Source: Roseovarius sp. THAF9 (GTDB lineage Bacteria > Pseudomonadota > Alphaproteobacteria > Rhodobacterales > Rhodobacteraceae). Taken from it: a stretch of DNA of 64,000 nt. Of the stretch, positions 6,488-20,324 are shown piece after piece. The stretch covers positions 3,750,001 to 3,814,000 of the forward strand of contig NZ_CP045404.1 in the NCBI RefSeq assembly GCF_009363715.1, written 5' to 3'. Numbering within the stretch: the stretch's first letter is position 1; each line of letters begins with the position of its first letter. Below the pieces are notes generated by a model. The model was given only the letters and a program-made list of their open reading frames with translations, had not been told where the DNA came from and made no database searches. Both the position numbers and the translations under genes were made by a program.

Positions 6488-8358
6488 GTATGAACGACCT
6501 TCGGGTAATGCCGCCACTGGCCCCGCTCGACATGCCCGAGCAGGATCTCGACGCTTGTTATGCAGATCCCAAGGCGCCTCCGGCCCGACCGGAAGAACAC
6601 GTCACGCTCTGGCGTTGCGTGGTCTTCATACCGGCGATTCTGGCGACCATCGGGTTCATCTGGTTCATGTGGGACTGGTTCGGTGCCGATGGCATCACGT
6701 GGGTCGAGGGCACGCTCCTGGGCCTGATGTCGTTCAACGTGTTCTGGCTCTGCCTGACGGTCACCACGGTCTTGCTGGGCATCGGTTCCTTGACGCAGGC
6801 GTTGAAGCGTCCCGGCCATCCACGACCCCTGAAGGTGGCGCTGTTGATGCCAATCTACAACGAGGTTCCGTGGTACGTGCTCGGCAACGCCCGTTCCATG
6901 CTGGAAGAACTGAGGGCGCGCGGGGGGCCGCATGAATACGCCATGTTCATCCTTAGCGATACGCGGGACGACGCTATCGCCCGTGCGGAACAGGATTCCA
7001 TCCGCTCGCTTCAGGCCACGCTGTCTCCGGGGCTTCGCATTTACTATCGCAGACGGGCCGAGAATACCGACCGCAAAGTTGGCAACATCACGGACTGGGT
7101 TCAGAACTGGGGTGCTGACTGGCCCGCCATGCTGGTGCTGGATGCCGACAGCCTAATGTCCGGCCGCGCAATTGGTCGCCTGACCGATGCGCTGGCACAG
7201 GATCCGGGAGCGGGTCTCATTCAAAGCTGTCCGCAACTCATCGGCGCCAACACCGTTTTTTCCCGGATGCAGCAGTTCGCCAACGGCGTCTATGGCACCG
7301 CTTTGGCCGAGGGGTTGGCCCGCTGGACCGGGCAGGAAGGCAACTACTGGGGTCACAACGCGATCATCCGCACCGAGGCTTTTGCGGCCAGCGCCGGCCT
7401 GCCGCACCTGCGTTCGCTGACGGGCCGCGATCAACTGATCATGAGCCACGATTTTGTCGAGGCCGGTCTATTGCGCCGGGCCGGTTGGGGCGTGCGGGTC
7501 CTTCCGCGCATCCGCGGCTCTTACGAGGAAACGCCGCCGACTCTGATCGACCACATTCAACGGGACCGCCGCTGGTGCCAGGGCAACTTGCAACACCTGC
7601 GCCTCTTGTCGACGCGCGGCCTGCGGACCGCCTCGCGTTTTCACATGTTCCACGGCGCGATGAGCTATCTCGCCTCGCCGATCTGGTTCGCGCTTCTGGT
7701 AATGTGGGCGCTTATGGGCGAGGGCGGCGACAAGTCCGTGCTGACCTATTTCCGTCCCGACAACCCTCTGATGCCGGTCTGGCCCGAGATGACCGAGGCG
7801 AAACACGTCCTGATCATCGCGCTTATGTATTCGCTGCTATTGCTGCCGAAACTACTGGGCATCCTGGTGGTCCCGCTGACACGGTCGCGCTTTGCCGAAT
7901 ATGGGGGGCCATGGCGTTTTGCGCTGTCATTCCTGTCCGAACTGGCGCTGTCGGTCGCCTATGCGCCAATCCTGATGGTGCAACAGATGATCGCGGTCTT
8001 CCGCACCGTGTTCGGCCTGCAAAGCGGCTGGAGCCCACAACAGCGTGACGGTGGCCGCTACGGCCTTGGGACCTTGCTGATCTGCCATGCGCTGGAAACG
8101 GCAAGCGGTGTCCTGTTGGTCGCCGGCATGGCGGCGGGGCTGGTGTCGCTTTGGCTGCTTCCGATCGCGGTCAGTCTTGTTCTGGCCGTTCCCCTGTCGG
8201 CCCTCAGCGGCGTGTCGCTGAAGGGCTTGGTGTCCAAGTGGATGGGAACCAAGGAACTATGGCGCGAACCCCCGATCACCCAGGCCGCGCGGCATTACCG
8301 CGCCGAACTGAAGCAGGCTCTGGAAGGCAAGCCACCCTCGCGGCAGGCTGCAGAGTAA
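6484..8358 (+). CDS. opgH: Glucans biosynthesis glucosyltransferase H (OpgH)
   Basis: This 624-residue inner-membrane GT2 glycosyltransferase polymerises glucose from UDP-glucose into the backbone of osmoregulated periplasmic glucan. Two N-terminal membrane segments precede the cytoplasmic catalytic domain, which shows MPIYNE near the start, the DAD metal/nucleotide motif at residues 220-222 and the QRDRRW processive-enzyme motif at 359-364. Several membrane segments follow in the C-terminal third. E. coli OpgH is longer (about 850 residues); the shorter form is common in alphaproteobacteria. The start at 6484 forms an ATGA overlap with the opgG stop. Confidence 0.93.
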   Translation: MSMNDLRVMPPLAPLDMPEQDLDACYADPKAPPARPEEHVTLWRCVVFIPAILATIGFIWFMWDWFGADGITWVEGTLLGLMSFNVFWLCLTVTTVLLGIGSLTQALKRPGHPRPLKVALLMPIYNEVPWYVLGNARSMLEELRARGGPHEYAMFILSDTRDDAIARAEQDSIRSLQATLSPGLRIYYRRRAENTDRKVGNITDWVQNWGADWPAMLVLDADSLMSGRAIGRLTDALAQDPGAGLIQSCPQLIGANTVFSRMQQFANGVYGTALAEGLARWTGQEGNYWGHNAIIRTEAFAASAGLPHLRSLTGRDQLIMSHDFVEAGLLRRAGWGVRVLPRIRGSYEETPPTLIDHIQRDRRWCQGNLQHLRLLSTRGLRTASRFHMFHGAMSYLASPIWFALLVMWALMGEGGDKSVLTYFRPDNPLMPVWPEMTEAKHVLIIALMYSLLLLPKLLGILVVPLTRSRFAEYGGPWRFALSFLSELALSVAYAPILMVQQMIAVFRTVFGLQSGWSPQQRDGGRYGLGTLLICHALETASGVLLVAGMAAGLVSLWLLPIAVSLVLAVPLSALSGVSLKGLVSKWMGTKELWREPPITQAARHYRAELKQALEGKPPSRQAAE

Positions 8359-8365
8359 CCAAGGC

Positions 8366-8833
8366 TCAACTGTCGTAGGCCGTTACCGGCAATCCCGTTT
8401 CGATCCAGCCCTGCCCGACGTCGGAACCCAACATGCCTTCGGGTACGTTGATGACCCGGGTATACCCTGCCTCGGTCAGGGCAATGCTCAGCCGTGCGGA
8501 ACGGACGCCACGCGCGCAGATCAGGGCGATCGGCACATCCTTGCGTGCGCCCGTCAATGCATCGAGTTCGGCAATGAACCCGGCATGCCGCATGTCGATT
8601 GGATGGGCGCCTTGGCCAATGCCTGTGCGCGCCCATTCGTCGGGCCGGCGAATATCAACCAGGATGATGTCGCCAGCTTTTGCCGCCTCGAAGGCGTCAC
8701 GGACCGAGAGCGCAGCACCGTCGAATTGCGGCCTTGACCAGACCGCCCAGCCAACACCGGCCGCCGCGGCAATACCCATGCCGGCCCCCAGCAGGGCGCG
8801 GCGAGAAAGGCGCGAGGCGGGTTTTCCTGTCAT
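8366..8833 (-). CDS. Rhodanese-like domain protein with Tat-type signal
   Basis: This 155-residue protein starts with LSRRALLGAGMG, a twin-arginine signal, and a short hydrophobic helix. It continues as a single rhodanese domain: ILVDIRRPDEW, then the active-site loop CARGVRSARLS. The cysteine of CARGVRS is where a persulfide would form. Rhodaneses shuttle sulfur to acceptors; a periplasmic location is inferred from the signal. The start at 8833 was picked over a longer reading frame because the Tat motif begins immediately after it. It is convergent with opgH (7 bases between stops) and lies downstream of the isomerase gene on the same strand. Confidence 0.8.
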   Translation of the reverse strand: MTGKPASRLSRRALLGAGMGIAAAAGVGWAVWSRPQFDGAALSVRDAFEAAKAGDIILVDIRRPDEWARTGIGQGAHPIDMRHAGFIAELDALTGARKDVPIALICARGVRSARLSIALTEAGYTRVINVPEGMLGSDVGQGWIETGLPVTAYDS

Positions 8834-8900
8834 CTTTTTCGTCCTTAAGGGTCCGCGCTCAACGTATCGCGGCCCTGTGCGCCTGTCATGGTCCAAACCC

Positions 8901-9674
8901 TCACCGCGCAGCACGTTCGCGTGCGCGGGCAAGCCAGCCAAGCGATATCTCGGTGTCACCCGAGGGCTTGTATTCCGCACCCAGGGGGCGGGTCCAACCA
9001 AGCGCGTCGATCTCGCGGAACACCATGTCATAGTCTAGGTCGCCGTGATCCGGCGCACCCCGGTCAGGCACCGCAGCGAACTGAATATGCCCGATAACAG
9101 GTAGGACCGCTTGCAGGCGCGCGACCACATCGCCCTCGACCCGCGCCACATGGTAACAATCGAACATCAGCTTCAAGTTCGGCGCGTTCACGTCTGCGAT
9201 CACCTGCTGCGCATGGTCGGTGGATTGCAGAAAATAGCCGGGCGCGTCGAACGAGTTGATCGGCTCGATCAGGATGGTCCTGTCGAATGCGATGTCACAA
9301 GCATAGGCAAGGTTGTCCCGGAAAACCGACTCGGCCTTTGTCCCCTCCGCCCGGCCTGCCATGACATGGATTGCCTCGGCGTCTGCTGCGCAAGCGTAGT
9401 CGACAGCTGCATCGATGGCGGCGCGCGCGTCCACCGCACGCCCCGGCAGGGCGGTCAGGCCGAAATCCCCGGCGGATACGTCGCCCCGAGCCGTGTTCAG
9501 GCCGAGCAGGGGCAGGCCCGTCTCCTTCAGCGCGTCGCGCAGAGCCTCGGGCGGCGTGTCGTAGGGCCAATGACATTCCACCGCATCGAAACCGGCTCGT
9601 GCGGCCGCACAAACGGCCTCCGGCAAATCCAGCCGCGACCAAAGGAAACCCAGATTGGCGGAAAACCTCGGCAT
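8901..9674 (-). CDS. hyi: Hydroxypyruvate isomerase family protein
   Basis: This 257-residue TIM-barrel enzyme belongs to the xylose-isomerase-like superfamily. Diagnostic blocks are ECHWPYDTP near the N-terminus, LIEPIN (a metal-binding glutamate), MFDCYH, GHIQFAAVPDRGAPDHGDLD and GAEYKPSG at the end, all characteristic of hydroxypyruvate isomerase (Hyi/GIP). It interconverts hydroxypyruvate and tartronate semialdehyde in glyoxylate metabolism. No glyoxylate carboligase or tartronate semialdehyde reductase is adjacent, so the in vivo substrate is inferred. It is transcribed away from the alcohol dehydrogenase gene, sharing an 85-base intergenic region. Confidence 0.82.
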   Translation of the reverse strand: MPRFSANLGFLWSRLDLPEAVCAAARAGFDAVECHWPYDTPPEALRDALKETGLPLLGLNTARGDVSAGDFGLTALPGRAVDARAAIDAAVDYACAADAEAIHVMAGRAEGTKAESVFRDNLAYACDIAFDRTILIEPINSFDAPGYFLQSTDHAQQVIADVNAPNLKLMFDCYHVARVEGDVVARLQAVLPVIGHIQFAAVPDRGAPDHGDLDYDMVFREIDALGWTRPLGAEYKPSGDTEISLGWLARARERAAR

Positions 9675-9759
9675 GAGAGTTGCTTGACCCGCTTTTGCAG
9701 ATAGGACGACCCTGCTAAATCATGAACATAGACGATGCATCGATCCAAGGGAAAACACC

Positions 9760-10800
9760 ATGAAGGCCGTGTTGTTCGATCAGTTCGGCGTCACGCCGAA
9801 GATCGCAAGTGTTCCGGACCCGACACCGGATGGCAAGGGCGTTGTCATCGAGGTCGGCGCGACGGGTGTTTGCCGCAGCGATTGGCACGGCTGGATGGGC
9901 CACGACCCCGACATCTCGCTTCCACATGTTCCCGGGCACGAGCTTGCCGGGCGGGTCGCCGCGGTCGGGCACGAAGTGCGTCGGTGGAAGGTCGGTGACA
10001 GGGTGACGGTACCATTCGTCGGCGGGTGCGGTACTTGCCAGGAATGCCATGCAGGCCACCAGCAGGTCTGCCACAACCAGTTTCAGCCCGGATTCACGCA
10101 CTGGGGGTCCTTCGCGCAATATGTCGCTATCGGACAAGCCGATCTGAACCTCGTGGGCCTTCCTGAAACGATGGCGTTCGAAACCGCCGCCAGCCTTGGC
10201 TGCCGGTTTGCCACGGCGTTTCGAGCGGTCGTCGATCAGGGCCGCGTCGGCGCCGGGGAATGGGTGGCGGTGCATGGCTGCGGCGGCGTCGGGCTGTCCG
10301 CACTGATGATCGCACGGGCAATCGGGGCAAACACAATCGCCATCGACATTTCGGATGAAAAGCTTGCCCTTGCCCAATCCTGCGGCGCCTCTGCCACGCT
10401 AAATGCTACGACGATCGCCGATGTGGTCGACGCGGTGCGCGATATAACCGGCGGCGGCGCGCATGTGTCGCTGGATGCGCTGGGGCATCCCAACACTTTT
10501 TTCAATTCCGTCTCCTGCCTGCGCAAGCGGGGGCGTCACGTTCAAGTCGGTTTGCTTCTTGCCGATCAGGCCACGCCGGCCGCGCCGATGGCCAAGGTGA
10601 TCGGCGACGAGCTTGAAATCCTCGGCAGCCACGGGATGCAGGCACATCGTTACGACGCCATGCTGACGATGATACAATCGGGCGCGCTGTCGCCCGATAA
10701 GCTGATCGGCAATCGGATCACGCTCGAGGCATCCATCGACGCGCTGACAAACATGGATAGCTTTGCCGGTATCGGCGCGACAGTGATCACCGAGTTCTAA
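9760..10800 (+). CDS. Zinc-dependent alcohol dehydrogenase (MDR family)
   Basis: This 346-residue medium-chain dehydrogenase has catalytic zinc ligands C38 ([12 protein letters not shown]) and the H60-E61 pair (VPGHELAG). A structural-zinc lobe of four cysteines, C90, C93, C96 and C104 ([16 protein letters not shown]), is complete. The nucleotide-binding loop reads [13 protein letters not shown]. Many close relatives are annotated as alcohol or threonine-like dehydrogenases; the substrate cannot be read from sequence. It is divergent from the hyi gene and followed by a 314-base spacer before a TRAP transporter, so it is probably monocistronic. Confidence 0.85.
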
Positions 10801-11114
10801 AAGGCCGGGGGTGTTTTCCGAGCAAAAGGTCTCGGACGACACCTTGATAAGAGCTCTGACGTGCACCGCAATCGAGACCCAGACATGCCATTGCTGGGCG
10901 ATGGTGGAACTGTGGGCGCTTAGTTGAAAAAATTATGCGCAACCACTTTCAGATAAACCGACTTGAAGGATTTTCTTCAAAAAAATTAAATAATTATGGT
11001 GTGCCCGCTGATCGGTTGCACTTCCACCCAAATCACGCGATGGTCTGGAGCAGATTGGTGCGCAAACGGGAAAGTGCACCGGGAATCGCTGAGTGGTCGG
11101 TGGGAGGAGACGCC
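10801..11114 (+). promoter_or_regulatory. 314-base spacer upstream of the TRAP transporter
   Basis: No convincing coding region was seen. The middle (about 10920-11000) is strikingly AT-rich for this genome, including an A-run followed by TTAAATAATTATGG, and is a plausible promoter region. An imperfect inverted repeat pairs TTGCACTTCC near 11016 with GGGAAAGTGCACC near 11080 and could bind a regulator. The frame of the downstream small permease is open through part of this region, but the ribosome-binding site argues against a longer protein. Confidence 0.4.
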
Positions 11115-11609
11115 GTGATCGTGCGTGCTATTGACGGTTTGAATGAAGTGGTCGGAAAGATCGTTTCCGTTCTGGCCATCATTTTTGCCGGCATCATCAT
11201 TTATGACGTCGTCTTGCGCTACGTGTTCAGCGAACCCACACGTTGGGCCTTTGACGTCTCCAAGCAGTTGTTCGGATTCTACTTCATCCTGCTTGGCGGC
11301 TACGCGTTGCGTCACAATGCGCATGTGCGCGTTGATATTTTGACCGAAAGGCTGGGCCGGGGTGGTCAACGGATCGCGGACCTTCTGGGTTACGTGATCT
11401 TCTTCTTTCCCTTCGCCTGGGTGTTTCTGACCCGGTCTTGGGACTTCGCCTCGACCTCCTGGGCGCAAGGCGAGGTCACCTACGGCGCCATTCAGATGCC
11501 TGTCTATCCGCTCAAGATGGCCATGTGCGTGGCTGCGGGGCTCTTGCTGCTGCAAGGGATCGCCGAGGTGCTGAAAATCATCCTCGACCGGCAGGAGATC
11601 TCGGAATGA
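11115..11609 (+). CDS. TRAP transporter small permease (DctQ family)
   Basis: This 164-residue integral membrane protein has four predicted helices and the DctQ signature around YVFSEPTRWAFDVSKQL (the conserved R/W-x-x-E-like motif between helices 1 and 2), followed by LGGYALRHNAHVRVDIL. It pairs with the large permease in a tripartite ATP-independent periplasmic transporter. A GTG start at 11115 is preferred over an upstream ATG at 10935 because GGGAGGAGA sits 5 bases before it and the helix-1 region then begins normally. The stop overlaps the DctM start (ATGA). Confidence 0.88.
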   Translation: MIVRAIDGLNEVVGKIVSVLAIIFAGIIIYDVVLRYVFSEPTRWAFDVSKQLFGFYFILLGGYALRHNAHVRVDILTERLGRGGQRIADLLGYVIFFFPFAWVFLTRSWDFASTSWAQGEVTYGAIQMPVYPLKMAMCVAAGLLLLQGIAEVLKIILDRQEISE

Positions 11610-12931
11610 ACCCGGAACTGATTGCGGTCCTGATGTTCGGCCTGCTTCTTGTGGGCCTTTTCCTGGGGCACCCGCTGGCCTTCGTCCTCGGCGGCACCGC
11701 GGTTCTGACCGCGGTCATTGCCGGAAAGCCGATGGTGCTCGGCATCGTCATCAATCGGATTTTCGGCGATGTTCTCGATAATTACACCCTGATTGCCATT
11801 CCGCTTTTCGTGCTGATGGCGCGCTTCCTGTCCGACTCGGGCGTCACGGACCGAATGTTCGAAACGCTGCGCCTCTTGCTCAGCCAGGTGCGCGGCGGGC
11901 TGGCTTTGGCGGTCGTCTTCATCTCGATCCTTCTGGCGGCGACGACCGGCATCATCGGCGCTTCGATCACCGTCATGGGGGTTATGGCGCTTCGCCCGAT
12001 GCTGCAATATGGCTACGCGCCGTCGCTGACCGCCGGCGTGATCGCGGCCTCCGGTTGCCTTGGCATCCTCATTCCGCCGTCAATCATGCTGATCCTGATG
12101 GCAAGCTATTCGCCGCTTTCGGTCGGCGAACTGTTCGCCGGTTCGATGATCCCCGGCGTGCTTCTGGGGCTCAGTTATGCGCTCTACGTCTATATCGTCT
12201 CGGTAATGCGCCCGGATCTTGCCCCGGCGGTCGAACCCGACGAGAAGGTTGAGCGCGGCACCTTGCTGCGCATGCTCGTGGTTGAAGCGCTGCCGCCGCT
12301 GGTGCTGATCTTCGGCATTCTCGGCTCGCTTCTGGCCGGCATCGCCACCGCCACCGAGGCGTCGGCCATCGGTGCCGCGCTGGCTCTGCTGATCGTGATC
12401 GCGCGCGGACGGTTTCAGCTCGGCACCTTCTACGGTGCGATGCTGGAAACGGGGCGCACCTCGGCCATGATCCTGTTCATTGTCGTGGGTGCGACAGCCT
12501 TTACCGGGGTGTTCAATATCACGGGTGGCTTGCGCGCGACGCAGGAACTGATCCGAATGCTGGACATGGAGCCATGGATGCTGATTGCCATGATGATGGC
12601 CATCGTCTTCATTCTTGGGGCTTTTCTGGATTGGACCGGGATTGTCCTGCTGTCCTTTCCGATCTTCCTGCCGATCATCGAGGAAATGCCGGATGTGAAC
12701 CTTTTGTGGTTCGTCGTCCTGATGGCTGTCGTGCTTCAAACATCGTTCCTGACGCCACCCTTCGGCTATGCGCTGTTCTATCTTCGGGCCATAGCGCCGA
12801 AAAGCCTGGCCACTGGCTCTATCATTCGCGGCGTGCTGCCTTTCATCGTGCTGATCGTCGCGATGTGCCTGCTCGTCGCCATCTTTCCGGCACTGGTCAC
12901 ATGGCTGCCGGATGTCCTCTACACCAAGTAA
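11606..12931 (+). CDS. TRAP transporter large permease (DctM family)
   Basis: This 441-residue protein has about 12 hydrophobic helices and is the Na+-coupled translocation subunit of the TRAP system. Recognisable segments are LGHPLAFVLGG, FVLMARFLSDSGV, GVIAASGCLGILIPPSIMLI and DWTGIVLLSFPIFLPI, all typical of DctM. The start forms an ATGA overlap with the small permease stop, so the two are translationally coupled. The substrate-binding protein follows 26 bases after the stop. Confidence 0.93.
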   Translation: MNPELIAVLMFGLLLVGLFLGHPLAFVLGGTAVLTAVIAGKPMVLGIVINRIFGDVLDNYTLIAIPLFVLMARFLSDSGVTDRMFETLRLLLSQVRGGLALAVVFISILLAATTGIIGASITVMGVMALRPMLQYGYAPSLTAGVIAASGCLGILIPPSIMLILMASYSPLSVGELFAGSMIPGVLLGLSYALYVYIVSVMRPDLAPAVEPDEKVERGTLLRMLVVEALPPLVLIFGILGSLLAGIATATEASAIGAALALLIVIARGRFQLGTFYGAMLETGRTSAMILFIVVGATAFTGVFNITGGLRATQELIRMLDMEPWMLIAMMMAIVFILGAFLDWTGIVLLSFPIFLPIIEEMPDVNLLWFVVLMAVVLQTSFLTPPFGYALFYLRAIAPKSLATGSIIRGVLPFIVLIVAMCLLVAIFPALVTWLPDVLYTK

Positions 12932-12957
12932 CCTCAACCATGAAAAAGGGAGAGACC

Positions 12958-14043
12958 ATGACTACCAAGGCATTCGTTTTCGCGGCCGCAGCCGCGACCG
13001 CGCTGGCCAGCCAGGCCACCGCGCAGGAAAATTGGACGATGACCACGACCTGGCCATCCTCTCTGGAACTCATCGAAACCGACAAGCACTTCGTCGATCT
13101 GGCGAACAAGCTGACGCAAGGCGAACTGACAATCGAGTTCTTCGACGGCGGGTCGCTCGTCCCGTCAGGCGAAGTCTTCGGAGCCGTCGAATCCGGAACG
13201 ATCCAGGCAGGCGCGGACTGGCCCGGGTACTGGGCGGGACGCGACGCGGCCTTCTCGCCGCTAGCGACAACACCAAGCCTCTTCAACGCGGTCGATTACG
13301 TCAACTGGATTCAACAATGGGGCGGCGCGGAACTCTATAACGAGATCTACGGCCAGTACGGCATGGTATATCTGCCCTACGGCGTCACCAACAACGAATC
13401 CGGTTTCCGCACCAACGAGCCGATCGTCACGCTGGAAGATCTTCAGGGTAAGCGCCTGCGGCTTTCCGGTCTTGAACAGGGCAAGCTGTTGGAACGCCTG
13501 GGCGGCAATCAGGTGTCCATGGCCGGCGGAGAGATCTATCAGTCTCTGGAGCGTGGCGTGATCGACGGGGCCGAGTTCTCGACGCCCAATGTCGATTGGT
13601 CCGGTGGTTTCCAGCAAGTCACCCAATACTGGGCGACACCGGGCTGGCACCAGTCGGCGTCCGTTTTCGGCGTGATGATCAACAAATCCGCGTGGGACGC
13701 GCTGAGCCCCGAAACACAGGAAAAACTTCAGATCGCGGCAGACGCCACGCTTCTTTGGTCGCTGGCCTTTACCGAGAAACGGGCGACCGAGGCCTACGCC
13801 AAGTTCGACGAGGCGGTCGAGATCAACCGCTATGATGAAGAGACGCTTTCCAAGGTCCAGGAAATGGCCAATGAAGTGATCGTCGAGACGGCTTGTGCTA
13901 ACCCCAACTCGGCCAAGGTCTATCTTAGCATGGTCGAGTATCTCGAAGACTACGCTCAATGGCGCGATGCCTCGGCACCTTTCAATCTCGGGCGCACACC
14001 CGATGGGCCCGATGCGGCGGCTCTGCGGGATTGCGCCGGTTAA
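12958..14043 (+). CDS. TRAP transporter substrate-binding protein (DctP family, TakP-like)
   Basis: This 361-residue periplasmic solute receptor starts with a Sec signal (TTKAFVFAAAAATALASQATA, cleavage after AQA/ATA-like alanines). The mature part shows the DctP fold: TTTWPSS at the ligand pocket, LEDLQGKRLRLSG and GVIDGAEFSTP, with a WSGGFQQVTQY-ATPGWHQ block seen in the branch that includes 2-oxo-acid and mannitol/chloroaromatic-type receptors. The start at 12958 is preferred over the ATG 18 bases upstream because GGGAG ends 5 bases before it. It is the last gene of the Q-M-P operon and is followed by a terminator. Confidence 0.9.
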   Translation: MTTKAFVFAAAAATALASQATAQENWTMTTTWPSSLELIETDKHFVDLANKLTQGELTIEFFDGGSLVPSGEVFGAVESGTIQAGADWPGYWAGRDAAFSPLATTPSLFNAVDYVNWIQQWGGAELYNEIYGQYGMVYLPYGVTNNESGFRTNEPIVTLEDLQGKRLRLSGLEQGKLLERLGGNQVSMAGGEIYQSLERGVIDGAEFSTPNVDWSGGFQQVTQYWATPGWHQSASVFGVMINKSAWDALSPETQEKLQIAADATLLWSLAFTEKRATEAYAKFDEAVEINRYDEETLSKVQEMANEVIVETACANPNSAKVYLSMVEYLEDYAQWRDASAPFNLGRTPDGPDAAALRDCAG

Positions 14044-14066
14044 AGCGGGGCGACTTTGACAATCAG

Positions 14067-14095
14067 ATGCCCGCCCTCGTGGCGGGCATTTTTTG
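14067..14095 (+). terminator. Rho-independent terminator of the TRAP operon
   Basis: A perfect 9-bp stem, ATGCCCGCC with GGCGGGCAT, encloses a 5-base loop and is followed by TTTTT. It is 23 bases after the DctP stop. Confidence 0.92.
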
Positions 14096-14216
14096 CGGCT
14101 CTCTGCGTTTCATATCCGCGAGTGCCAAACACTCGCAATACCGACGCAGGGCCGCCAGTATGTCGGCGTTGAGCAGACCATCGAACAAACGCGGGGTCAC
14201 TGTGTTTCAAATAAAG

Positions 14217-14240
14217 AAGGCGCCCGCGGGTGCCTTTTTT
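14217..14240 (+). terminator. Hairpin terminator flanking the tRNA-Pro remnant
   Basis: A hairpin (AAGGCGCCC with GGGTGCCTT, one G-T pair) is followed by a run of T on the plus strand and preceded by an A-rich stretch, so it can act in both directions. It lies immediately beyond the 3' end of the tRNA-Pro-like remnant at 14244. The intact tRNA has a comparable GC-rich hairpin in the same position (20221-20240). It may be the original terminator of the tRNA-Pro gene, displaced when the adjacent island inserted. Confidence 0.65.
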
Positions 14241-14243
14241 GTC

Positions 14244-14294
14244 TGGCCGGAGCAAGAGGATACAAACCTCCGGCCCCTGCCTCTCGAAGACAGT
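14244..14294 (-). repeat. Decayed direct repeat of the 3' half of tRNA-Pro(CGG) (candidate att site)
   Basis: These 51 bases match the 3' part of the intact tRNA-Pro gene at 20248-20298, in the same orientation, at 45 of 51 positions by eye. The match runs from the CCA end through the T arm and variable loop to the anticodon loop, then stops abruptly. This is the typical extent of a duplicated attachment site left by tRNA-integrating elements. The substitutions (for example in the T loop) show it is no longer under selection as a tRNA. Confidence 0.75.
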
Positions 14295-14584
14295 TCAGAA
14301 ATCAAAACTATAGAAAAGCAAGGCGTTTTGATGGCTCATACCTGCGTAGTATCCCCGAAGTCCGTCAGATATCTGGTACGGCACCAAAAACATCGGAACT
14401 CCATGCTCAGCATCTTTTTGCCGGCATCCCACGTCAGAAATTCTCGAAATTCGATCACGGAACGATACGCAATCTCTCTCTGAAAACCCAAAATCAGTAC
14501 GGGTTCAGCCCCAATCTTGACACAAGGTTCCGTAAAAAGAAACGAACCGTTTCCGCGGTTTAGGTGGCAGCTTGTGAGGGGCTA
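14295..14584 (+). other. Non-coding stretch between the tRNA remnant and the first island gene
   Basis: About 290 bases with several short open frames in two phases but none with a convincing ribosome-binding site, composition or recognisable motif. It is less GC-rich than its neighbours. It may hold the promoter of the glycosyltransferase cassette or decayed mobile-element sequence; neither can be shown from sequence alone. Confidence 0.4.
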
Positions 14585-15781
14585 ATGAAGAACGAAACAA
14601 TCTCTGTTGCATTTGTCCTGCCGTGTCTTAACGAGGTTGCGACGCTCGAGAAGTGCATTCTCAGGGCTCAGGTCGCTCTGGCGGAAATCCGGGAGAAGTT
14701 TGGCCTTTCCGGCGAAGTGATCGTTGCTGACAACGGCAGCACCGATGGCAGCCAGGACATTGCCAGACGCGCTGGCGCACGGGTCGTGGATGTGCCGGAA
14801 CGCGGCTACGGTGCGGCGCTGCTCGCCGGGTTCGGCGCGGCGAAATCGCAATATCTTGTTATGGGCGATAGCGATTGCTCCTATGACTTCGTCGAAGCTG
14901 TCCCGATGATCGAGGAGCTGTTGAACGGTGCCGACTTGTGCATGGGCAACCGGTTTCGCGGCGGTATCAAGCCCGGCGCGATGCCTTGGAAAAACCGCTA
15001 CATCGGCAATCCAGCCCTGTCGGGTCTCCTGCGGTTTCTCTTCAAGACCGATATCGGCGACGCCCATTGCGGTCTGCGGGCCCTGACTTCGCCCGCTTTA
15101 AAGCGTCTCAACCTGTCGTCCTCCGGAATGGAGTTCGCCTCCGAAATGCTCCTGAAATCCGTTTTGCTGGATTACCGGATCGCGGAAGTGCCGGTCACCC
15201 TTTCGCCCGATCAGCGCGGTCGCGATCCGCATCTGAATCCGTGGCGCGATGGGATGCGGCACCTCATCTACATGCTTTTGCTCAGCCCAAGCTGGCTCTT
15301 TATGGTTCCGGGCCTCGCGCTTGGCCTGCTCGGTCTTGTGCTAATGACCGCCCTGCTGGCCGCGGGGGGCAATGACTTGGTCCAAATCGGCGGTTTCTTC
15401 TTTGGAAGCCACTGGGCTGTCATGGCCAGTGCCGCCATGGTCATCTCCATGCAGACAATCATCATGGGGTTGTTCGCCCAAGTCTACAATTACAAGGCAC
15501 TGATCCGGCGGCCCAGCAAACGGGCCATAGCCTTTCTCACCGCGTCACGACTCGAATACTGGCTTCTGGCAGGCCTGTTGCTGATTGTCGGCGGTCTGGC
15601 ATGGATCAGCACCATCACACTCGGCTGGATCGCATCTGATTATGCGGGCCTCAGCGCGATGCGTTCGATGATCGCGGCCGGAACGATGTGCGTGATCGGT
15701 GCGCAGGTATTCTTTGCCGGTTTCCTGATGTCGGTGGTCTCCGGCAATCGGTCGCAGCATCTGTATGCAGCAAGTGTCTGA
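14585..15781 (+). CDS. GT2-family glycosyltransferase with C-terminal membrane domain (DPM1-like)
   Basis: This 398-residue protein has an N-terminal GT-A domain resembling dolichol/undecaprenyl-phosphate sugar transferases. It shows VLPCLNEVATLE, VIVADNGSTDGS (UDP/GDP-sugar site), the metal-binding region GDSDCSYDF and the acceptor-side NRFRGGIKPGAMPWKNRYIGN. A second half of about four hydrophobic helices anchors it in the membrane. Enzymes of this type charge a polyprenyl phosphate with a hexose as a donor for later membrane glycosyltransferases such as the GT39-like protein encoded downstream. The start at 14585 has GAGGGG about 5 bases upstream. It is the first gene of the putative tRNA-Pro island. 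Confidence 0.83.
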   Translation: MKNETISVAFVLPCLNEVATLEKCILRAQVALAEIREKFGLSGEVIVADNGSTDGSQDIARRAGARVVDVPERGYGAALLAGFGAAKSQYLVMGDSDCSYDFVEAVPMIEELLNGADLCMGNRFRGGIKPGAMPWKNRYIGNPALSGLLRFLFKTDIGDAHCGLRALTSPALKRLNLSSSGMEFASEMLLKSVLLDYRIAEVPVTLSPDQRGRDPHLNPWRDGMRHLIYMLLLSPSWLFMVPGLALGLLGLVLMTALLAAGGNDLVQIGGFFFGSHWAVMASAAMVISMQTIIMGLFAQVYNYKALIRRPSKRAIAFLTASRLEYWLLAGLLLIVGGLAWISTITLGWIASDYAGLSAMRSMIAAGTMCVIGAQVFFAGFLMSVVSGNRSQHLYAASV

Positions 15782-15799
15782 CCAAAGCTGGCAGATGCG

Positions 15800-16807
15800 A
15801 TGATGAAGCAGGCAAATATCATGGGCGGGGCCGAAGCAATACAAGGCCGGCTCTGGATCGCGCTGGCCATCACGGCCGGCGCGGTTCTGGGGATGGTCGC
15901 CCTCTTCATGGCCAGCAAAGCGTCCTTGGCCAGCCTTGCGGCCATGTGCGCCCGCGTTCCCCTTTGGACCTATGGCGTCATTGCCCTTGGCCAGGCCACA
16001 ATCGTATTGCTAGCTGCTGTCCGCTGGCGCGTGTTGCTGAAAGCCGTGTCGCCACGGGGCGAAACCCTCGCCCTCCGCCATGCAACCGCGGCGACGACAT
16101 CGGCCGCCATTGCCGGGCAGTTTCTGCCGATCCAGCTTTGCACCCCGGTCATTCGCGCATGGTTCGCTTCGCGTTTCGATATCCCCGTCCTGAGATCCCT
16201 CGGCACGTCGGCATTGGAGCAAACATTTCAGCTTCTCGTGCTGGTCGGCGCGGCAGGACTGAGCGTAATGTTCCTGCTGCCAACACCCGGCTGGATGTTC
16301 GATGCGAGCGCAGCGATACTGTTCATGACGGCCCTGATCGTCTTCGTCCGGCTTGCAATTCAGCTGGCGTCCAAACTGCTGGTACATGTCGCGGATCACG
16401 AAACGCCACTTCTGTCGCGCACCGCCGGCCGCCTGCGTCTGGGTTTCGAAAGAGCCGCGCAGTTGCCCGACGGCATCCTGACATCGATAACCGCGCTGAG
16501 TCTGCTTGGGTATGCTGTCCTTGCCGCGCTAAACGTCCTGCTGCTCAACGCCATCGCGGGCGTGGATATCCTGCCCCTTCTGATCGCCTATCCGTTGGTT
16601 CTGTTTCTGATGTCGCTGCCCGTTTTACCCGGTGGGCTTGGCGTGGTCGAAGCGACATGGGCGGGCATCCTCGCGCGCGAAGGCTTGCCCTTCGATCAGG
16701 CGGTCGAGGCCGCTCTGGCGTTGCGGGTGGTCTCGACCCTGGGCTTCTTCCTGATCGCACCGCTGCTCCTTGCCGACCTCCGATTAAGCAAGCGGAGCGC
16801 GCCATGA
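15800..16807 (+). CDS. Lysylphosphatidylglycerol synthase TM-region/UPF0104-type membrane protein
   Basis: This 335-residue polytopic membrane protein (about eight helices) has the UPF0104 pattern. A conserved RW-x-x-LL near helix 2 (AAVRWRVLLKAV), an internal F-x-P-x-x-x-G-like segment (GQFLPIQLCTPVIRAW) and the C-terminal LPVLPGGLGVVEATWAGIL are visible. Members next to polysaccharide genes are suspected lipid or polyprenyl-linked-sugar flippases, but function is unproven. The start is uncertain: ATGATG at 15800/15803 or ATG at 15821. The stop overlaps the next gene start (ATGA at 16804). Confidence 0.75.
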   Translation: MMKQANIMGGAEAIQGRLWIALAITAGAVLGMVALFMASKASLASLAAMCARVPLWTYGVIALGQATIVLLAAVRWRVLLKAVSPRGETLALRHATAATTSAAIAGQFLPIQLCTPVIRAWFASRFDIPVLRSLGTSALEQTFQLLVLVGAAGLSVMFLLPTPGWMFDASAAILFMTALIVFVRLAIQLASKLLVHVADHETPLLSRTAGRLRLGFERAAQLPDGILTSITALSLLGYAVLAALNVLLLNAIAGVDILPLLIAYPLVLFLMSLPVLPGGLGVVEATWAGILAREGLPFDQAVEAALALRVVSTLGFFLIAPLLLADLRLSKRSAP

Positions 16808-17748
16808 CCCGGCCCTGGCTTTCCGTGATCATGCCGATCTTCAACGGCCATGCGACGCTGGACACCGCGCTGTCATCGCTTGTAGGGCAATGCGACGGGC
16901 TCGAGATCATTGCCGTCGATCAAGGGTCAACCGATGGTAGTCGCGATCTGCTACAGGCGGCGCAAACCCGTCTTCCGATCCGGATCATCGACAACCCCGA
17001 CGGCAGCTCGTGGACCGCGAACACCAATATCGGCCTGCATGAGGCCAGTGCACCGCTTATCACCATGCTGCACCAGGACGATGTCTGGTCGCCCGGGCGC
17101 GCCGCGCTTCTCAAGGACATGGCCGGCCGGCATCAAGTGGTCGACATCTGGGTGCATGGCGCTGACCTCATTGACGAACACGAGGCAACGGTCGGTCAAA
17201 TGTGTCCACCATTCGGGGCGGCGCGCCGTGTTCTGACGTCCGAGGAGGCGATGTCGCATCTGATCGTGCAAAACACTCTGGCTCTGCCTGCTGTCATGTT
17301 CCGGCGTGACGCCGCGCTACAAAAGGGCGGTCTTGATGAGGCGCTTTGGTACACTGCGGATTGGGATCTTTGGCTGAGCCTTGCACAAAACGGTTTGGCC
17401 TGGGATCCCGGACACGCCTCGGCGTTCAGGATACACGCGAACTCCCTGACCATGACCGGTTCGCGGAACTTGCAGTCCTTCAAACGTCAGTTGGAGATAC
17501 CGCTCGATCGCCATCTTGAGCATCTGCCGGACCGGCTCAGGCGGCGGGCCCGCAGACGCGCTGAGGCAGCCAACGCGCTCAACGTCTGTTTGGCGGGCCT
17601 GCATCATCGCAGTCTTCGCGGCGTTGGTTCAGCCCTTCGAAAAGCTTTCATGCTTGGCCCTAACGAATGGCGCGAATTTTTCACGACAACACAGATCGTG
17701 AACAGGTTGGCACCTCGGGTGAAACTGGCAATGAAAAGAGGGACATGA
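16804..17748 (+). CDS. GT2-family glycosyltransferase
   Basis: This 314-residue cytoplasmic GT-A enzyme begins WLSVIMPIFNGHATLDTAL and continues with the donor-site motif VDQGSTDGSRDLL. HQDDVW is the D-x-D-like metal-binding segment, and ADWDLWLSLA sits in the acceptor half. This is the architecture of sugar transferases of surface-polysaccharide and glycolipid clusters; donor and acceptor are unknown. Its start forms an ATGA overlap with the upstream membrane protein and its stop is one base before the methyltransferase start, so it is part of a tight operon. Confidence 0.85.
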   Translation: MTRPWLSVIMPIFNGHATLDTALSSLVGQCDGLEIIAVDQGSTDGSRDLLQAAQTRLPIRIIDNPDGSSWTANTNIGLHEASAPLITMLHQDDVWSPGRAALLKDMAGRHQVVDIWVHGADLIDEHEATVGQMCPPFGAARRVLTSEEAMSHLIVQNTLALPAVMFRRDAALQKGGLDEALWYTADWDLWLSLAQNGLAWDPGHASAFRIHANSLTMTGSRNLQSFKRQLEIPLDRHLEHLPDRLRRRARRRAEAANALNVCLAGLHHRSLRGVGSALRKAFMLGPNEWREFFTTTQIVNRLAPRVKLAMKRGT

Positions 17749-17749
17749 A

Positions 17750-18376
17750 ATGGGATCTATCGGAGCAAGCGTAAGACGTGCCTTTGGCCCTTATGAGAGG
17801 CACGTTTCGGAACTTTACCGCCGTGTATTCATCGATCTGGAGAGTCTGGCGGACTGTATCCAGGATTGGGCAGACCCGACCGCCATCTGTGAAATCGGTT
17901 GCGGCGAGGGCGCATTGGCCGAACGCCTTTGCCGGGACTTTCCTGATGCGTCCTACCTGGGCATCGACATAATCCCGCAACTGGGGCGCATGTATGACGG
18001 GGAACGTGCCGAATTCCGCCAGATCGCCGCGCAGGACCTGGCCGAAGAACGCAGCGGACAGTTCGACCTGGTTGTCATCAACGATGTCATGCACCATGTG
18101 CCGGTCGCAATCCGCGCGGACATCCTGCAAGCCGCGAAAAAGCTTTTGATGCCCGGCAGTGTTCTGGTGTTCAAGGACTGGCTCAGACGCAGCACGCCCA
18201 TTCACGCGGCCTGCTACGTGGCCGATGTATACATAGGTGGCGACAAGAACGTCGCCTACATGGCCATGGAAGAGCAACGGGAGCTGATCGCTTCGGTATT
18301 CGGGTCCGAAGCGGTCGCGGCGGAGCAATCGATCAGACCCTGGTCCCAGAACCACGCCTTCAAGGTTGTCAGATAG
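17750..18376 (+). CDS. Class I SAM-dependent methyltransferase
   Basis: This 208-residue Rossmann-fold methyltransferase has motif I CEIGCGEGALAE at about residues 48-59, the acidic end of strand 2 LGIDI, and FDLVVINDVMHHV as motif IV. In this setting it probably methylates a sugar or lipid-linked precursor, but substrate cannot be read from sequence. It begins one base after the GT2 stop and overlaps or abuts the next gene, which supports a common pathway. Confidence 0.82.
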   Translation: MGSIGASVRRAFGPYERHVSELYRRVFIDLESLADCIQDWADPTAICEIGCGEGALAERLCRDFPDASYLGIDIIPQLGRMYDGERAEFRQIAAQDLAEERSGQFDLVVINDVMHHVPVAIRADILQAAKKLLMPGSVLVFKDWLRRSTPIHAACYVADVYIGGDKNVAYMAMEEQRELIASVFGSEAVAAEQSIRPWSQNHAFKVVR

Positions 18377-18386
18377 GCCATTGGGT

Positions 18387-19883
18387 ATGACGGTAACTAC
18401 GTGCATGCAGCTTCCGGGACTCAGTCAAGAACAAAGGCTCACATTTGCGATAAGGCTGTTCATCCTGGTGAAAGTCGCCGCCCTGTTTGTGCTGGCGATC
18501 AACACGCGCTTTGTGATGGATGAGTTTTGGCACTTTACCCAGCCGGTATATCTGTTCGATGGCACCTTCGACACGATATGGCCCAAGAAAGCGGTCGGCT
18601 ACGCGGTCTTTTACGAACTGTCCCACCTGATCGGCTGGGATGCGACATCCATGCTGATCACGGGCCGGTTGACCACAGCCTGCGTTGCGCTGGCGTTGAC
18701 CGTTTGCATCTACAAATGCGCCCGCGCCCTAGGCCACGAGCGTATCACTGCGTTACTGGCAGTGGCGCTCCTGCTCAGTTTCAGCAGCTATATCGAGCGC
18801 GGATTCCGACTTCGGTCCGAACCGCTCGCCACGCTATTTTCGGCCTCGGCCGTTCTGGTCGTCATCCGATATGAAACCGACCGAGCCAAGACCCTTTTTA
18901 TCGCGGGGCTACTCAGCGGGCTAGCCTTCGTGACGACGCAGAAGTCGGTTTATTTCAACTTTGCATTGGGGGCCGCCTTGGTGGTTGATGCCCTCTGCAT
19001 GCGATCTGCCTCGCGCGCGCTCTTTCGTGGAGGGCTGCTCATTTTCGGTTGGGCCGGCGCCATTCTCTTCTACGGCGCCCTGCTGGGCGGCACCGCGATG
19101 CCGCAGGTCTTGAAGGTGCTTTTCCTCGGGCCGGTCGAACTCGCCCTCCACGGTGGCAGCTACTATGAAGGGCTGGATGCCTTCGTCCGGCAGACGCTCT
19201 TGCGCAACGCTTTGCCCTACGCGCTGGTATGTCTTGGCCTTGTCCTGTCAGCTGCGCGTATTCTCAAATGCGACAGTGCAGCTCGGATATTCCTTGTCCA
19301 CGCGGTCCTGATCACCGGGCTTGTCTTCTTTCACAATCAGACATGGCCTTACGTGTTCTCAATGGCGCTGCCATTCCTGGCGGTCTTTGGGGCTGTGGCG
19401 GTGACTGTCCTGCTGCGGCAGAGGGCAAGCCGATCCGCAATGGCGCTGGTCATCCTGTCTGTGATCGCGGTACAGAGCATTGTTCGCAATGTGCAGTATC
19501 TGGGCCACGACAACCGCGCTCAGCTGGCACTCGTCCAACAGGTCGAAGCACAGCTTGCGCAGGACGAGACCTATTTCGACGGCATCGGCATGATCCCGAG
19601 TCGCCGTATGGAACCCCGCTTGTGGCTCGATGCCCAGGCCGTCCGTAAAACGAAAGAAGAAGGGCAGAATTCCACGCTCTACGGCGCATTACTCCGTGCC
19701 GAGCCGCACCTTGTCATTGCGACCTATCGCACAGACGGGTTGGGCTCCGTATTCGGAAGTGCTCTGAATACGAAATACGGCTTTCTTACATCTCATATTT
19801 TGCTGCGGTTCGAGGCTAATCCAATGCTGACACCTCCAAAGGCCGAGCGGGCTCCGCTCTTCAACGGTATATATACCGATTGA
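18387..19883 (+). CDS. Membrane glycosyltransferase, GT39/ArnT-like (GT-C fold)
   Basis: This protein of about 498 residues is mostly hydrophobic (ten or more helices). The first extracytoplasmic loop holds an acidic pair (FVMDEFWH) as expected for the catalytic D/E of GT-C enzymes that take sugar from polyprenyl phosphate. A soluble C-terminal part (from about residue 370) ends near FNGIYTD. It likely transfers the sugar charged by the DPM1-like GT2 onto a periplasmic acceptor. The start is uncertain: a TTG at 18366 overlaps the methyltransferase stop, ATG occurs at 18387 and again at 18408. It is the last intact gene before the integrase remnant. Confidence 0.7.
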   Translation: MTVTTCMQLPGLSQEQRLTFAIRLFILVKVAALFVLAINTRFVMDEFWHFTQPVYLFDGTFDTIWPKKAVGYAVFYELSHLIGWDATSMLITGRLTTACVALALTVCIYKCARALGHERITALLAVALLLSFSSYIERGFRLRSEPLATLFSASAVLVVIRYETDRAKTLFIAGLLSGLAFVTTQKSVYFNFALGAALVVDALCMRSASRALFRGGLLIFGWAGAILFYGALLGGTAMPQVLKVLFLGPVELALHGGSYYEGLDAFVRQTLLRNALPYALVCLGLVLSAARILKCDSAARIFLVHAVLITGLVFFHNQTWPYVFSMALPFLAVFGAVAVTVLLRQRASRSAMALVILSVIAVQSIVRNVQYLGHDNRAQLALVQQVEAQLAQDETYFDGIGMIPSRRMEPRLWLDAQAVRKTKEEGQNSTLYGALLRAEPHLVIATYRTDGLGSVFGSALNTKYGFLTSHILLRFEANPMLTPPKAERAPLFNGIYTD

Positions 19884-20185
19884 GTCGTGCTGGGATGCCG
19901 GAGGTCATGCCTCACACGGCGCGACACACTGCGATTATCGGAGCCATGGGGGGCTGCGCGATTGTCTGGCACGTATCAGGGCTCTTCGGCGTAGCGATGG
20001 GCACGCTCGAGAGGTATCACGCGCACTACCATCCCGACTACGTGAAAACAGCCGTCAACGTCGCCCACAAAATGGGTAACGATAAGTGTCCAACGGGCAC
20101 GTCAACGCTGTGCGTCACGCCAGCCTACCTCCGATGCCGAAGCGGCAGACGCCACCGTAAGGCGAATTCGGTGTCACATTTCTGA
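19880..20185 (+). pseudogene. Remnant of a tyrosine recombinase (phage-type integrase) C-terminus
   Basis: The open frame of 101 codons carries two blocks that resemble the end of tRNA-targeting tyrosine recombinases. The first is PHTARHTA (the H-x-x-R box of the active site, about residues 11-18). The second is TLERYHAHYHPDYVKTAVN, like the usual ERVYGHHHPDY segment that contains the second histidine region and the nucleophilic tyrosine. The N-terminal DNA-binding and first catalytic-Arg regions are absent, the spacing between blocks is slightly altered, and about 35 unrelated residues trail at the end, so it is not a working enzyme. It sits about 65 bases from the 3' end of tRNA-Pro and reads toward it, where an integrase of an island would lie. 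Confidence 0.62.
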
Positions 20186-20220
20186 AACGCGTCCCAGACA
20201 GAAAACATCCTGAAACACCT

Positions 20221-20240
20221 AAGGGCCCCGAGGGGCCCTC
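20221..20240. terminator. GC-rich hairpin just beyond the tRNA-Pro 3' end
   Basis: A self-complementary block (AGGGCCCC with GGGGCCCT and a minimal loop) lies 7 bases from the tRNA 3' end. The plus-strand side is followed by ATTTTATT; the minus-strand tail is weaker. It probably ends transcription of the tRNA and/or of the island genes. Confidence 0.6.
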
Positions 20241-20247
20241 ATTTTAT

Positions 20248-20324
20248 TGGTCGGAGTGAGAGGATTCGAACCTCCGGCCCCTGCCTCCCGAAGACAGTGC
20301 TCTACCAGGCTGAGCTACACTCCG
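20248..20324 (-). tRNA. tRNA-Pro, anticodon CGG
   Basis: A complete 77-base cloverleaf is readable on the minus strand. The acceptor stem CGGAGTG/CACTCCG has the C1-G72 pair typical of proline tRNAs. The D arm is GCTC/GAGC, the anticodon stem CTGTC/GGCAG encloses loop TTCGGGA (anticodon CGG), the T arm is GGAGG/CCTCT with TTCGAAT loop, and the discriminator A plus an encoded CCA end the molecule. Its 3' half is duplicated in decayed form at 14244-14294. Confidence 0.96.

Follow-up and report, generated by a model that had tools for sequence, protein, structure and literature searches.

A five-gene glycosylation cassette in Roseovarius sp. THAF9 very probably arrived as a genomic island, brought by a tyrosine-recombinase element that integrated into a tRNA-Pro(CGG) gene, and the five genes are still under selection and most likely have a polyprenyl-linked sugar function. 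The DNA analysed, called the window below, is a stretch of 64,000 nt (GCF_009363715.1, NZ_CP045404.1:3,750,001-3,814,000, forward strand), and the single tRNA gene found in it by ARAGORN is this tRNA-Pro(CGG) (20248-20324, minus strand). The island lies between the tRNA and a decayed copy of the tRNA's 3' part (Table 1). G000 denotes the genome of the window, other G-numbers denote compared genomes, and L-numbers denote fetched loci.

Evidence for integration into tRNA-Pro(CGG)

A preliminary description of this DNA had reported a partial repeat of tRNA-Pro, five genes next to it (GT2, UPF0104, GT2, a methyltransferase, and a GT39-like GT-C enzyme), a tyrosine-recombinase remnant beside the tRNA, and the geometry of a tRNA-integrated island. 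The repeat, the genes, and the remnant are confirmed here, and the geometry is supported by two genomes of the same genus, G089 and G006. The repeat agrees with tRNA-Pro at 45 of 51 positions, whereas the runner-up among ungapped 51-base sites in the window, both strands considered, reaches 28 of 51. When the own genome was searched with positions 14236-14300, this tRNA was recovered at E 3.5e-12 and everything else at E 0.48 or worse; no other tRNA of that genome fits the repeat better. The five genes were assigned by Pfam, in order, to GT2, LPG_synthase_TM (UPF0104), GT2, methyltransferase, and PMT_2 with DUF7056; their frames are all open, closely spaced and on one strand, and no phage or conjugation gene is among them. 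From about position 14504 onward, the DNA of the window is shared with the cassettes of Aliiroseovarius and Litoreibacter arenae.

In Roseovarius confluentis SAG6 (G089), the five genes are found at the same tRNA-Pro with a perfect repeat (51/51), and their products are 97, 87, 94, 94, and 93% identical, in order, to those of the window. At the DNA level the island is 91.4% identical over 5.6 kb, which is comparable to the identity of the two flanks (leuB side, 93.8%; adh side, 88.3%), so that the insertion is most simply older than the split between the window and G089. The dN/dS ratios (nonsynonymous to synonymous substitution rates) between the two are 0.05 for GT2a, 0.28 for the UPF0104 protein, 0.13 for GT2b, 0.16 for the methyltransferase, and 0.13 for the GT-C enzyme, indicating that the cassette genes have been kept by selection. 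Among 56 loci retrieved at tRNA-Pro or at partial copies of it, none lacks the island and keeps the five genes with the repeat; the one locus with the five genes, that of G089, has both the repeat and a recombinase remnant.

The preliminary description had also predicted different cargo at the same tRNA, and this was found in G006 and in further genomes. G006 matches positions 8001-14300 of the window at 87.6%, spanning the tripartite ATP-independent periplasmic (TRAP) transporter operon, the hairpin, and the repeat, which is perfect in G006 (51/51). The ~19 kb between repeat and tRNA in G006 hold different genes, with the five cassette genes all absent. Seven proteins of this cargo were scanned against Pfam; among the cargo proteins are META/NlpE, amidohydrolase, Abhydrolase_9, and DUF3604 members, and a set of the cyclic oligonucleotide-based antiphage signaling system (CBASS) at L050:14626-18882, with a phospholipase effector (E 7.6e-111), an oligonucleotide cyclase (E 1.2e-157), and capP (E 5.4e-36). 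The tRNA-side arm and the recombinase tail are common to the window, G089, and G006 (82-87%). Judged from these alignments, the integration end is of the same kind in all three, with different cargo.

The recombinase remnant was recognized through its relatives. A Pfam scan of the open reading frame (ORF) 19880-20185 alone gave no match at E 0.1; the remnant is 72% identical over 61 aa to a 225-aa ORF of G006, itself without a Pfam match, and 49% identical over 61 aa to an open 359-aa integrase of G037 (PF00589, E 4.2e-12). A segment of about 0.9 kb that separates the GT-C gene from the recombinase tail in G089 is absent from the window. The recombinase copies of G089 and G006 are likewise broken into several frames: a 242-aa frame in G089 has a weak PF00589 match below the cut-off (E 0.0066), and the Pfam scan found no match in the two pieces of G006. 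Next to the tRNA of the window, then, the site-specific recombinase is present as a C-terminal remnant, and no recombinase capable of moving the island today was found there, only this tail being left.

As judged from the comparison with relatives, we propose that, in a common ancestor with R. confluentis, an integrative element with a tyrosine recombinase inserted itself into tRNA-Pro(CGG), within its 3' part. The element would have brought a new 3' part, so that the tRNA stayed whole, and the original 3' part would have been displaced 6 kb away, where it decayed. With only the C-terminal end of the recombinase remaining, the island has most likely become fixed.

Table 1. Features of the island and its borders in the window
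Feature	Position	Strand	Remarks
Segment that aligns to a second integrase (its 3' tail and downstream arm; G052, G051, G053)	14140..14205	+	Suggestive
Hairpin/terminator adjoining the repeat	14217..14242	undefined	Similar hairpins on intact tRNA-Pro in relatives
Decayed 51-base copy of the tRNA-Pro 3' part, putative distal attachment-site copy	14244..14294	-	45/51 match
Non-coding island-side arm of the distal attachment copy	14295..14503	undefined	80% vs G089 over 347 bases from the repeat
GT2a, DPM/AglJ-like candidate polyprenyl-phosphate-sugar synthase, C-terminal membrane helices, 398 aa	14585..15781	+
UPF0104/LPG_synthase_TM membrane protein, candidate flippase, 335 aa	15800..16807	+
GT2b, without predicted membrane helices, 314 aa	16804..17748	+	Best solved relative a PglI-type glucosyltransferase
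S-adenosylmethionine-dependent methyltransferase, 208 aa	17750..18376	+
GT-C-type membrane glycosyltransferase, PMT_2 and DUF7056, 498 aa	18387..19883	+
C-terminal tyrosine recombinase remnant	19889..20185	+	Matches in G006 and G037; shortened vs G089
Element-derived tRNA-proximal arm with its own hairpin	20213..20247	undefined	Common to G089 and G006
tRNA-Pro(CGG), intact, putative integration target	20248..20324	-	ARAGORN; 3' end faces the island

Other histories of the site

Several results weigh against an island of this origin and function. The guanine-plus-cytosine (GC) content of the island is 58.9%, hardly different from its flanks (60.9 and 60.3%), so that the check on composition suggested by the preliminary description does not mark the island; GC and GC content at third codon positions (GC3) were dropped as island markers for lack of useful contrast. 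Beyond the repeat and 6 bases, nothing of the distal arm aligns between the window and G006. Profile searches by sequence returned no solved relative of the UPF0104 and GT-C proteins. The TRAP operon is no stable neighbor of tRNA-Pro in the genus, and an empty site for the window's own island was found in none of the genus genomes compared. The predicted empty site, in which the TRAP operon and hairpin join an intact tRNA-Pro, was likewise found in none of the relatives compared. It stands in part: in G052 a similar hairpin directly adjoins the intact tRNA-Pro, but insertion sequence-like ORFs, judged as such by reading, and another integrase tail separate that hairpin from the TRAP operon.

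Hairpins similar to that of the window sit directly on the intact tRNA-Pro in G021, G102, G052, G056, G098, and G100, so that the hairpin beside the repeat may be the original terminator or the legacy of an earlier element. To the left of the repeat, the sequence is similar to a second integrase's tail, and there may therefore have been more than one hit at the site. In such a serial tandem integration, which we consider evenly poised between true and false, the left flank would represent the recombinase-proximal end left by an older element, which had that second integrase, the glycosylation island would have been inserted later between this end and the tRNA, and the TRAP operon may be older cargo. 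G052, G051, and G053 have a distinct integrase tail with a conserved motif starting 239 bases from the tRNA; the tail of G052 is 28% identical over 133 aa to the recombinase of G006. In pairwise alignments with the hairpin excluded, each compared with 300 shuffles that kept base composition only, the left flank of the window (~14140-14205) aligned with each of these three tails above 300 of 300 shuffles. The match is short, however, the window flank does more poorly against G058 (3/300), G021 (11/300), and G056 (143/300), and the left flank of G006 itself aligns weakly with G052 (2/300), G053 (99/300), and G051 (169/300). As for the TRAP operon, a strong dctP match was present in 38 genomes, and in three of these (G000, G006, and G052) dctP lies <20 kb from a listed tRNA-Pro match; several of the 38 have no listed tRNA-Pro match, and many are drafts. 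G089 has no TRAP operon at the site, its adh gene ending 8 bases before the repeat, and a search for a trace of tRNA-Pro to the left of the TRAP operon gave nothing above background. In G089 (L098:9001-9040), the segment lost with the TRAP operon and hairpin stops almost exactly at the tRNA repeat.

It is plausible, although we lean slightly away from it, that a single integration module was retained at this position in the ancestor of G000, G089, and G006, with the cargo swapped by ordinary recombination, as opposed to separate insertions of related elements. The identity of the shared tRNA-side arm and recombinase tail is near that of the flanks (88-94% for G000-G089; 87.6% for G000-G006), and the distal arm is common to G089 and G006 (94% over 79 bases, repeat included) and to the window and G089 (Table 1). 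Against such swapping stand the very short distal match between the window and G006, noted above, and the consideration that independent insertions of related elements would yield the same ends.

Beyond these three genomes, tRNA-Pro copies were searched for in two sets of the genus, of 60 and 84 genomes. An extra partial copy was found in at least 12 of the 84, own genome included, which is a rough lower bound. In nine (G000, G006, G013, G037, G044, G053, G054, G056, and G089), the copy lies on the same contig <30 kb from the intact gene; in G092 and G098 it lies on other contigs, and G051 has a 98% copy (G051:C1:1416006-1416056) located 415 kb from the intact gene, suggesting a rearrangement or a very large insert. 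The copies are degenerate in G044, G054, G056, and G098 (83-90%). Five relatives have exact copies of 46-51 bases that all stop in the same region of the tRNA, with different DNA between where it could be traced. G089 has a second decayed copy (94% over 52 bases; L110:2023-2074, G089:C19) with an element-like arm, on a contig different from that of its intact tRNA-Pro. In G037, a partial copy at L046:10143-11370 has a left flank like the tRNA-side arms of L064 and L055, and an open-frame integrase points at it, which looks like tandem elements.

An occupied and an empty site were also found, for an island other than that of the window. G054 has a partial copy and an island of ~29 kb, the left flank of G008 sits directly on the intact tRNA, and the two left flanks are 97.8% identical over 2,700 bases; by this alignment, G008 and G054 are an empty/occupied pair at tRNA-Pro, with an indel of ~1.2 kb to the right of the tRNA. 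The site is thus an integration hotspot in a marine genus, where a perfect repeat, a decayed repeat, and an empty site are found side by side. We offer only tentatively, as a rather unlikely extension, the idea that in Roseovarius, phage-relevant cargo (CBASS in one lineage, a mobile receptor-changing glycan cassette in a related one) is exchanged between related recombinase modules at tRNA-Pro(CGG), making it a swap site, the cassette being a new modular, tRNA-hopping system of polyprenyl-linked glycosylation in Rhodobacteraceae. The notion that the repeat is a chance match or a gene-duplication remnant of tRNA-Pro, with five ordinary chromosomal genes beside it, accords with the unremarkable base composition but is extremely improbable in view of the exact copies in five relatives, the recombinase tail beside the tRNA, the sporadic occurrence of the cassette, and the contradicting loci of G089 and G006.

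Cassette genes, predicted function and spread

GT2a resembles the dolichol monophosphate mannose synthase 5mlz (E 1.4e-13) and has hydrophobic C-terminal segments, so that by homology and hydropathy it is a putative polyprenyl-phosphate GT2 with a membrane anchor; its best NCBIfam model is AglJ, with 134 bits far below the cut-off of 325. Pfam places UPF0104, GT2, and PMT/STT3-related GT-C proteins together in the cassette. The GT-C protein matches PMT_2 above the cut-off and shows 8 hydropathy peaks; D44-E45 and R142-S143-E144-P145 are kept in seven of seven aligned sequences, and we take motifs such as these to belong to GT-C active sites.

From the family membership of the proteins, the following steps may be proposed. 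GT2a would charge a polyprenyl phosphate with a sugar at the cytoplasmic face, and the UPF0104 protein (and/or the membrane helices of GT2a) would bring the charged lipid across the membrane. The GT-C enzyme would then pass the sugar to a periplasmic acceptor bound for the cell surface, and GT2b and the methyltransferase would extend or cap the glycan. The product is likely a sugar, perhaps methylated, on a surface glycan, lipid, or protein. That the cassette affects contact with phages or hosts is a guess. As a small intact gene set, it could be removed for a direct test of surface modification and phage sensitivity in roseobacters.

The cassette is sporadic: outside the genus, three more loci have all five genes in this order, one of them next to tRNA-Ser. 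At this tRNA-Ser, in Litoreibacter arenae, 15 bases of the tRNA 3' end recur exactly at a distance of 8.3 kb, and the left-flank gene has short weak matches in 7 of 20 congeners and nothing stronger. In a Ruegeria metagenome-assembled genome, the locus at tRNA-Gln showed no repeat within its 19.5 kb. The GT-C gene was found on one plasmid (Ruegeria conchae, 787 kb), and not in IMG/VR with two peptide patterns or in the phage records searched. In Ruegeria, DUF2142 membrane proteins and UPF0104 genes stand beside a GT2b and GT-C pair (L124:3266-7319, L121:11636-14359), with a further GT2 and methyltransferase in L124. None of the titles listed by the literature searches concerns this tRNA site or cassette, and DUF7056 is not mentioned in the literature searched.

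Comparison with known systems

Prophages of Rhodobacteraceae are described in tRNA genes; the relevant passage of that report (PMC8224337) does not name tRNA-Pro as a target. The present island shares with tRNA-integrated islands and prophages that use tyrosine recombinases the whole 3' end of the tRNA, the displaced 3' part at the far end, the recombinase beside the tRNA, and the variable cargo. It differs from them in its broken recombinase and in five cargo genes that are not phage or conjugation genes.

Gtr proteins act as a polyprenyl-phosphate GT2, a membrane translocator, and a membrane transferase. In Salmonella, gtrA/gtrB/gtrC operons are described as modifying the O-antigen (PMC3688519). 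The cassette resembles them as a horizontally acquired set with these three kinds of protein. It differs in that its translocator would be PF03706 (UPF0104), the small membrane protein giving that Pfam match and none to the GtrA model at E 0.1, and in having an extra GT2 and a methyltransferase.

Closer in composition is an archaeal neighborhood in which UPF0104 proteins, described as proposed flippases, are found together with an AglD-like glycosyltransferase and a PMT/STT3-related enzyme (PMC5898192). The same three kinds of protein lie side by side here, whereas the cassette is bacterial, located on an island, and accompanied by a methyltransferase and a second GT2. In Pseudomonas aeruginosa, gpgSDF likewise pairs a glycosyltransferase with a UPF0104 candidate flippase, there for a glycolipid; as described in that source, it has a GT4 and a deacetylase, and no GT-C enzyme (PMC12713373). 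The type of island is itself known, and what is new here is that related species hold the same or different cargo, that the site is a hotspot, that an older layer may be present, and that the cassette is distributed sporadically.
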